Assembly (NCBI GenBank): GCA_013388755.1
Contig: JACAEQ010000048.1
Span: 1 to 39,001, forward strand
Length of the DNA stretch: 39,001 nucleotides
Direction: 5' to 3'
Source of the DNA: Chloroflexota bacterium
GTDB taxonomy: Bacteria; Chloroflexota; Chloroflexia; Chloroflexales; Roseiflexaceae
The translations under genes and the position numbers were made by a program. Under the pieces are notes generated by a model. It worked only from the letters and a program-made list of their open reading frames with translations. It ran no database searches and was not told the DNA's origin. Below, one piece after another: positions 20,435-22,107 of the stretch (positions are counted from its first letter, which is position 1; each line of letters begins with the position of its first letter).

Positions 20435-20587
20435 ATGCGACCCGATCGACTGGCTCTCGTGCTGCTGGTAGCAACCATTCTGGTAGCAACCATCATTGTG
20501 CTGATCTTTGGTGAACTTGTAACCCGCGTGGTGTTTGCGGCCCTGCTGGCGCCGGGGATGTGCGGTGCGCGTGATATGGCGGCTTAG
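20435..20587 (+). CDS. Doubtful 50-residue membrane peptide
   Basis: ATG at 20435 opens a 50-residue frame with a continuous hydrophobic run (LALVLLVATILVATIIVLIF) and then a short tail. The composition is unlike the repeat around it. There is no clear ribosome site, no promoter and no recognised family, and its last codons lie in the direct repeat GGCTTAGAGCC. It could be a true single-span protein or chance. Confidence 0.25.
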   Translation: MRPDRLALVLLVATILVATIIVLIFGELVTRVVFAALLAPGMCGARDMAA

Positions 20588-20736
20588 AGCCAATACCTTT
20601 CACAGACGCCCGTCACTCCCTCCCCGGCCCTCCCCCGCCAGGGGAGGGAGTCCGACTCCTCCCCCCGGCGGGGGGAGGTCGGGTGGGGGCTATGCGGTGC
20701 ATAACGCCTTATTTGAAAGGTATCGGGCTTAGAGCC
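20581..20736. repeat. Hairpin element flanked by 11-bp direct repeats
   Basis: GGCTTAGAGCC occurs at 20581-20591 and 20726-20736. Just inside are inverted ends ATACCTTTCA (20593-20602) and TGAAAGGTAT (20714-20723). The interior holds two GC-rich hairpins: 20615-20625 with 20641-20651, and 20658-20666 with 20670-20678. It looks like a small non-autonomous element or repeat cluster; there is no coding capacity. The right direct repeat overlaps the left end of the next element. Confidence 0.55.
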
Positions 20737-20889
20737 TGTCCGAACACCAGATGGTCCATGTCATTGCGAGCGCGAGCGAAGCAAGCTCCTCGCGCGCCGC
20801 TCGATTGCTTCAGCCACGCTGCGCTCGCTGCACGCGGTCGCTGGCGCTCCGCGCAATGGCAGCATGCCCATGGGTGTTCGGAGAGGCAC
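20732..20889. mobile_element. Candidate 158-bp MITE
   Basis: Ends GAGCCTGTCCGAACACC (20732-20748) and the inverse of GTGCCTCTCCGAACACC (20873-20889) agree at 15 of 17 positions. Similarity continues inward to CATTGCG in both arms, so the whole unit can fold back. TTA flanks both sides (20729-20731 and 20890-20892), like a 3-bp target duplication. Ends and TNA-type duplication recall the IS5 superfamily; that link is inference. No transposase is present. Confidence 0.6.
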
Positions 20890-21033
20890 TTACCCTGTCG
20901 GAACATCGCCAGCAGTATAAAAACGAGTACTGGCAGCAAGTCAGGGCGATTATTTTATCCTGGCGCGGCCTGGCGTGCCGTTGATGGTTGCGGCGCTTGC
21001 TTCGCAGACGTGGATGTTAACGAGTGGGTGGTA

Positions 21034-21108
21034 TGGTGGGCCGGGTGGGGATCGAACCCACGACCGTCGGTTTAAAAGACCGCTGCTCTACCGCTGAGCT
21101 ACCAGCCC
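21034..21108 (-). tRNA. tRNA-Lys (anticodon TTT), CCA encoded
   Basis: 75 nt. Acceptor GGGCTGG pairs with CCGGCCC (one T-G wobble). The D stem is GCTC/GAGC, the anticodon loop CTTTTAA gives TTT for lysine, the T arm is GTGGG-TTCGATC-CCCAC, the discriminator is A, and CCA is encoded. The outermost anticodon-stem pair (27-43) is G-A rather than Watson-Crick. It lies alone between the repeat mosaic and the quinone oxidoreductase gene. Confidence 0.96.
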
Positions 21109-21116
21109 CACCAGAT

Positions 21117-21125
21117 ATTATACCA
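21117..21125 (-). promoter_or_regulatory. Extended -10 promoter of tRNA-Lys
   Basis: TGGTATAAT on the minus strand. The predicted start near 21110 falls within a few bases of the mature tRNA 5' end. No good -35 box was seen. Confidence 0.6.
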
Positions 21126-21138
21126 CAGCCATGGACAG

Positions 21139-22107
21139 CTATGGGAGGAGCAGGAGCTTCCCGCTTGTCGCCCGGCTCGCCAGCGCGCGGTGCGCCTCCG
21201 CGGCGTCAGCCAGCGGGTAGGTTGAGTCAATCCGCACGCTCAGTTCACCCGACGCCATCCAGGCGAAGAGATCACCGGCGCGCCAGAGCAACTCGTCGCG
21301 CGTCAGCAGGTAGTGCCCCAGTGACGGGCGCGTCAGGAACAATGACCCCTTTGCGTTCAATATCTGCGGATCGAACGGCGGCACAGCTCCGCTTGATTGA
21401 CCGAACAGCACCATGTAGCCGCGCGGGCGCAGGCATGCAAGGCTGCCATCGAAGGTCGTCCGGCCGACCGAGTCGTAGACCACATGGACGCCTGCGCCGC
21501 CGGTCAAACGGCGCACGGCATCTGGGAAGTCTTCCTGCGTATACAGGATGATGTCGTGGGCGCCGGCGGCACGGGCCAGCACTGCCTTCTCTTCGGTCGA
21601 GACGGTGCCGATGACGTGCGCGCCGCAACGCCTGGCAATCTGGACCAGCAACAACCCGACGCCGCCGGCGGCGGCATGGATCAGCGCCACGTCACCCTGG
21701 CGTAATGGATAGGTGCTGTACGCCAGGTAGTGCGCCGTCATCCCCTGCAGCATGACAGCCGCTGCCTGCTGCGATGCCACGCCTGCCGGAACCGGGACGA
21801 GTTTCGCCGCCGGTACAATCGCATACTCCGCATACGCGCCCTGCTGCATGGCGTAGGCGACCCGGTCGCCCGAGGTCACGTCAGCAACATCAGGGCCGAC
21901 TGCATCCACGATACCGGCGGCTTCCATTCCCGGGGTCAATGGCAGAATACCCTGGTACTGCCCGCTGCGGTGATAGATATCAATAAAGTTGACGCCCGCA
22001 GCCTCGATTTTCACGCGCACCTCACCCGGTCCAGGATGCGGCAGCGGCACATCCTCATGGCGCAGCACCTCCGGCCCGCCATACTCATGAACACGTATTG
22101 CGCGCAT
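21139..22107 (-). CDS. Zinc-independent quinone oxidoreductase (MDR family)
   Basis: 322 residues. NADPH:quinone reductase-type enzyme, cytoplasmic. The GroES-like half has [22 protein letters not shown] and [14 protein letters not shown], the QOR substrate-side signature. No structural zinc cysteines are present. The nucleotide fold has [15 protein letters not shown] (about 144-158). [18 protein letters not shown] and the C-terminal [24 protein letters not shown] are typical. The ATG overlaps the stop of the large GH13-type gene by one base (TAATG), so they are co-transcribed and probably coupled. A functional link to that gene is not obvious. Confidence 0.93.

Follow-up and report, generated by a model that had tools for sequence, protein, structure and literature searches.

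The 158-bp element at positions 20732–20889 of the window (the whole stretch of 39,001 nucleotides that we analyzed) is, with a probability we put at about 93%, a gene-less MITE that was mobilized in trans by the IS5-family (DUF4096 + DDE) transposase of a full-length IS with the same ends. For this element, which we call MITE1, we observed many copies, common ends, 3-bp duplications, complete IS elements elsewhere that carry the same ends and duplication, and two related empty sites. An earlier note had guessed at a MITE from the raw sequence, and the evidence of copies, ends and duplications settles that guess.

The size and coordinates given in the earlier note for MITE1, which is read here on the + strand, proved exact. 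Its left terminal inverted repeat (20732–20748, + strand; GAGCCTGTCCGAACACC) and its right one (20873–20889, − strand; in reverse complement GTGCCTCTCCGAACACC) are 17 bp each and identical at 15 of 17 positions, bearing out the inverted ends proposed from the sequence. The trimer TTA is present on both flanks, at 20729–20731 and 20890–20892, where it had been noticed. The interior (20749–20872) is non-coding, can fold back on itself and holds a CATTGCGAG...GAAGCAA core with matches elsewhere. No remnant of a lost transposase gene was noticed in it on general inspection. Pairing of the inner arms was confirmed by folding the strand as DNA, which gave −51 kcal/mol (z = −4.16) with none of 200 shuffles equally stable. 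Likewise the suspected lack of coding capacity holds, as six-frame translation of the majority sequence yielded no frame able to hold a transposase; one frame is open by chance over its 52 codons, and a mechanical 130-aa frame (20683–21075) spans the element. MITE1 thus shows the features by which MITEs are recognized: it is short with no transposase gene, has terminal inverted repeats and a target duplication, and occurs in dispersed copies. A promoter and terminator scan of 20500–21150 found neither, a search of a plasmid collection with MITE1 gave no match, and around MITE1 Rfam returned a tRNA above its cut-off while the other nine among the matches listed fell below theirs.

A genome search for the ends, the check suggested in the earlier note, revealed many copies. 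In G000, the 5.08-Mb genome (145 contigs) to which the window belongs, the end pattern GWRCCTNTCCGAAMACC occurs at 193 exact sites, compared with none for a reversed-pattern control. MITE1 with its flanking trimers gave at least 44 BLAST matches in this genome (40 of 379 first-look candidates were scored); besides the window copy, 39 of the 44 are near full length at 90–94% identity and four are partial or less similar. Copies were delimited by taking the stretches around end sites, allowing up to 4 mismatches per end, and pairing inward-facing ends, which produced 128 pairs, 123 of them with both flanks. Removal of overlaps, of pairs summing to more than 4 mismatches and of pairs longer than 285 bp left 104 non-redundant copies, a set that starts from exact end sites, so that copies with both ends off-pattern lie outside it. 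Of these, 53 are 158 bp long, 10 are 133 bp and 41 have other lengths, including 28 of 148–199 bp; 102 of the 104 are similar to the window copy by BLAST. Among copies more than 80% identical to the window copy, the 51 gap-free 158-bp copies average 93.6% identity to their majority sequence, and the window copy has 93.0%. The earlier note had named the absence of other copies or of related IS ends as the outcome that would count against a MITE; about 100 copies are present, and IS elements with such ends exist in other genomes.

Within the order, the strict end pattern was found in two of 82 genomes, G000 and, at one site, G015. In G050 and G058, both of the same order, it has no site, and matches to the CATTGCGAG...GAAGCAA core in these two genomes are confined to about query positions 31–63. 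In both genomes we also observed repeated, partly clustered matches to the CATTGCGAGCGCGAGCGAAGCAA core that lack MITE1 ends, among other places at L024 and L028.

The flanking TTA, which had been read as a target duplication, recurs genome-wide. Identical 3-bp flanks border 59 of 102 flanked copies (TTA in 34, TAA in 22, TTC in 2 and TCA in 1), while control trimers taken at outward shifts of 3, 6, 9 and 12 bases are identical in 1, 1, 0 and 1 of 101; an exact duplication is absent in the other 43. The base preceding the duplication is C in 41 of the 59 cases and the base following it is G in 32. These counts bear on whether MITE1 could instead be a chromosomal palindrome or a REP-like repeat that did not transpose and was multiplied by gene conversion or by slippage during replication, an origin to which we give only the faintest chance. 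The strong fold-back, the core matches without ends in G050 and G058 and the allele mosaics formed by the copies would all suit it, but TTA or TAA duplications at 56 of 102 copies weigh heavily against it, as do the fixed 158-bp and 133-bp units, the sharing of MITE1 ends with coding IS5 elements and two related empty sites.

Those empty sites emerged when the joined flanks of 53 exactly duplicated copies were queried against the loci fetched in this analysis. Some match across the junction was obtained for 11 of the 53; several of these matches recover the locus of the copy itself or MITE1 copies in tandem and are uninformative. Two copies, C8:14889 and C143:98742, sit inside copies of a second short element, MITE2 (described below), and uninterrupted MITE2 relatives align through the junction. 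For C8:14889 the relative is L050, which has CAA where the duplication is TAA; for C143:98742 the relatives are L113 and L071, with TTA in place in L113. Both informative sites are paralogous MITE2 sites and do not represent the orthologous locus of a sister strain. The empty site that had been sought in a close relative was therefore found in part, as related paralogous sites for two other copies, but none was obtained for the window copy in a close strain.

IS elements with matching ends, which the earlier note had advised looking for, exist in other genomes (L272, L275 and L278) but were not found in G000 in searches for PF13340, PF13586 and protein P0001. L272, from Methanosarcina sp. DH2, is a complete IS of 872 bp with one 273-aa frame, MITE1-type ends and TAA on both sides. 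L275, from an Oculatellaceae cyanobacterium, is likewise complete (898 bp, TAA on both sides) and has MITE1-type ends and two overlapping frames. Both transposases score above the cut-offs for NF033580 (IS5 family transposase), PF13340 and PF01609, L272 reaching 263.9 bits against NF033580 (cut-off 110). Additionally, cut or degraded relatives of the L272 transposase begin or finish at a scanned end site in L174, L214, L215, L229 and L230, as determined by tblastn. Within the order, the L272 protein has matches in 45 of 82 genomes and none in G000. The closest of 20 fetched loci is L278 (G047), a complete 909-bp element flanked by TAA on both sides whose open frame is 55% identical to the L272 protein and whose two ends together have 1 mismatch to the MITE1-type end. 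Three further loci have 2–3 end mismatches and stops in the matched frame: L281 (G074; 905 bp, TAA/TAA), L282 (G035; 911 bp, TTA/TTA) and L280 (G072; 911 bp, at a contig start). The remaining 16 show at least 6 end mismatches or no pair. The proposal of a non-autonomous member of the IS5 superfamily is thus supported by elements elsewhere of the NF033580/DUF4096 + DDE_Tnp_1 type that have the same ends and a TAA duplication.

Several IS5-type transposases of the L272 group come in two overlapping parts, as though a frameshift were required (L275:4596–5424; also in G026, G047 and G072). The CCTATCCGAAAA string found at the ends of such elements did not occur in the collection of open-licence papers that was searched.

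In G000 itself, no DUF4096 (PF13340) or DDE_Tnp_1_2 (PF13586) transposase was found, and the P0001 query, which represents the L272-type transposase, had no match. The transposase matches in this genome are four to PF01609 and one to PF13359, and their presence would favor a MITE driven by one of these other, still resident groups. To that possibility we assign a very small probability, as none of these loci has a MITE1 end pair better than 4 + 4 mismatches and the typed complete IS elements with MITE1 ends (L272 and L275) belong to NF033580. Accordingly, the loci concerned (L043–L046, where L044 is also the PF13359 match) were rejected as the partner IS; their end sites are single, apart from one pair that has 4 + 4 mismatches and whose members are separated by 1.8 kb. 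Separately, L044 (G000:C74, about 740–1680) carries a DDE_Tnp_4-type transposase in two frames without MITE1 ends, and no inverted repeats were found there.

We infer an IS5-family transposase of the DUF4096 + DDE type as the one that moved MITE1, and the events may be pictured as follows. A full-length IS with ends G-A/T-G-CCTATCCGAA... would have supplied the transposase, which would recognize the MITE1 ends in trans and mobilize the element. MITE1 would then have been cut and joined, presumably in that order, to a C-TWA-G target at a stagger of 3 bp, gap repair producing the TTA or TAA duplication. Repetition of these steps could have built up about a hundred copies. No mobilizing IS was found in the current assembly; it has probably been lost, or else it escaped assembly. 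Later, a MITE2 copy landed on the left junction of the window copy.

Elements with the same ends are not limited to G000. A scan of named genomes for TNAGAGCCTATCCGAAAA, a pattern that itself requires TNA on one side, found at least 116 stretches, plus one viral contig (L277). At least 78 short pairs (<400 bp) are present in 73 of the 117 fetched loci. Among the matches listed, the flanking trimer is identical in 42 of the 78 short pairs (TTA in 24, TAA in 17 and TCA in 1), compared with 1 of 78 for an outer control. The hosts, again among the matches listed, include Methanosarcina, Methanoperedens, Planctomycetota, Brocadiia, Anaerolineales, Roseiflexus, Nitrospira, a cyanobacterium and others. 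For the 62 of 78 that, among the matches listed, are long enough to have their interiors compared, 11 groups hold 41 elements, mostly from one host or related hosts, and 21 are singletons; likeness to the G000 copies is limited to 15–29 bases in 5 elements. Thus, GAGCCTATCCGAAAA-type ends with TTA or TAA duplications occur on short elements of bacteria and archaea (L161–L277) whose interiors are mostly host-specific. The 12 longer pairs among the matches listed include two complete IS elements, L272 and L275; four others (L177, L185, L205 and L264) were translated, and no transposase was recognized by reading. In viral contigs we found one isolated end (L048) and one MITE (L277) that groups with Methanosarcina MITEs. 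Given that both bacteria and archaea carry MITE1-type ends, a single group of transposases may serve MITEs of differing interior across many phyla.

The MITE2 copy in the window (20591–20725; ends CAATACCTTTCA and TGAAAGGTATCG) is inserted across the left end of MITE1. Its 10-bp target duplication, GGCTTAGAGC, lies at 20581–20590 on the left and at 20726–20735 on the right, where it takes in the TTA as well as four bases at the start of MITE1. Since this duplication covers the MITE1 junction, the MITE2 copy inserted after MITE1. Members of the MITE2 family are about 136 bp long with 10-bp duplications centered on CTAG, and the end CAATACCTTTCA has 108 exact sites in G000 (control, 0). Among 29 pairs, one of which overlaps another and which were drawn partly from loci fetched for MITE1, the duplication is exact in 17 and has at most 1 mismatch in 22. 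Of 100 exact MITE2 ends listed from the 108, nine adjoin an exact MITE1 end at 6–7 bp, where about 0.04 would be expected by chance. Insertion beside MITE1 ends is likely explained by the resemblance of the C-TWA-G junction of MITE1 to the MITE2 target. The MITE pair is flanked on one side by two genes for ATPases of oligopeptide-type ABC transporters and by a 103-aa frame that matches no Pfam family, all of them on the + strand; its other side holds genes for tRNA-Lys and for a zinc-type alcohol dehydrogenase, which run on the − strand. Both insertions lie downstream of both flanking gene sets, so they are probably neutral there.

The differences among MITE1 copies follow an unusual pattern. 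The 51 gap-free 158-bp copies show 517 differences from their majority sequence: 194 G/T, 139 A/C, 118 transitions, 52 C/G and 14 A/T, so that A/C and G/T exchanges account for 333 of the 517. Transitions predominate among rare variants, those carried by no more than two copies (67 of 108), and 26 of the 37 sites with a minor allele in at least 3 copies are A/C or G/T. Linkage is nearly absent among the 26 sites whose minor allele occurs in at least 6 copies (mean r2 of 0.040, compared with 0.020 expected by chance, and six pairs exceeding 0.3); all four allele combinations are present in 305 of 325 site pairs, and r2 drops with distance. Among 24 A/C or G/T sites, six pairs lie no more than 2 bases apart, and in these two strong bases occur together once, compared with a permuted mean of 24.7 and a minimum of 14 in 5000 permutations under a null that does not include shared descent. 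Sites 60 and 71, at which the weak allele is the rare variant, were left out of this test; with both included the count is 38, compared with 59.7 permuted. The strong-allele count does not rise with private mutations (rho −0.21, p 0.15).

Since the weak/strong split was chosen from the A/C and G/T sites, the A:T to C:G direction in the 158-bp set is partly by construction, and the direction rests on the 133-bp copies and on the target duplications. In the ten 133-bp copies the weak allele prevails, with 0–4 strong alleles at 22 aligned sites, and transitions are the largest class of their differences (17 of 34). Among 79 copies of 148–199 bp, 45 have exact duplications, 18 have more than 1 difference or no TWA, 3 pair TTA with TAA, and 13 have readable single mismatches. 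Ten of these 13 are T-to-G or A-to-C (one counted twice, as it is common to two tandem copies) and three are transitions. Fifteen copies of 130–135 bp have 11 exact duplications, and both readable mismatches are transitions. Because the two duplicates are equal at birth, mismatches between them arose after insertion, if TWA was the target.

Several causes of this pattern are conceivable. Tentatively, and with rather low probability, the 148–199-bp copies may have diversified by an element-specific A:T to C:G process, for example transposition- or hairpin-linked error-prone synthesis that places oxidized dGTP opposite A. Alternatively, alleles that date from a past mutator phase may have been reshuffled through gene conversion, which leaves the target-duplication mismatches unaccounted for. 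Sequencing error is unlikely because the 133-bp copies mostly carry the weak allele. A genome-wide mutator is likewise unlikely because MITE2 copies in the same genome have transitions at 99 of 166 differences; by eye, and uncounted, the MITE2 copy hosting C8:14889 also looks transition-decayed. In each of five MITE groups from other genomes that share MITE1 ends, transitions are the largest class (74 of 111, 68 of 105, 26 of 34, 28 of 39 and 10 of 24 differences); in the last they fall short of a majority. Selection for the hairpin found no clear support: real copies average −80.3, six allele-shuffled sets range from −79.2 to −80.4, and the real copies are more stable than five of the six, by at most about 1.2 kcal/mol. 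Should an active process underlie the pattern, as opposed to gene conversion reshuffling ancient alleles, MITE1 would qualify as a mobile element that has a mutational signature of its own.

Members of the IS1031 group of the IS5 family make a TNA target duplication. MITE1 has a 3-bp TNA duplication in common with them and may belong to this group. Similar to the ∼0.9-kb NF033580 (transpos_IS5_3) IS elements such as L272, MITE1 has ends of the type G-A/T-A/G-CCTATCCGAAAA and a 3-bp duplication (TAA in those elements); unlike them, it encodes no transposase, where the IS encodes one of ∼270 aa. Prokaryotic MITEs in general (reviewed in PMC10969869) are short and non-coding, with terminal inverted repeats, a target duplication and many copies, and MITE1 has all of these features. 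A difference from MITEs in general is that elements with MITE1-type ends are spread over many groups of bacteria and archaea (at least 73 of 117 fetched loci), while their interiors are mostly host-specific. MITE1 is a real, high-copy IS5-type MITE of a known kind, and its A/C and G/T substitution pattern is the odd feature.
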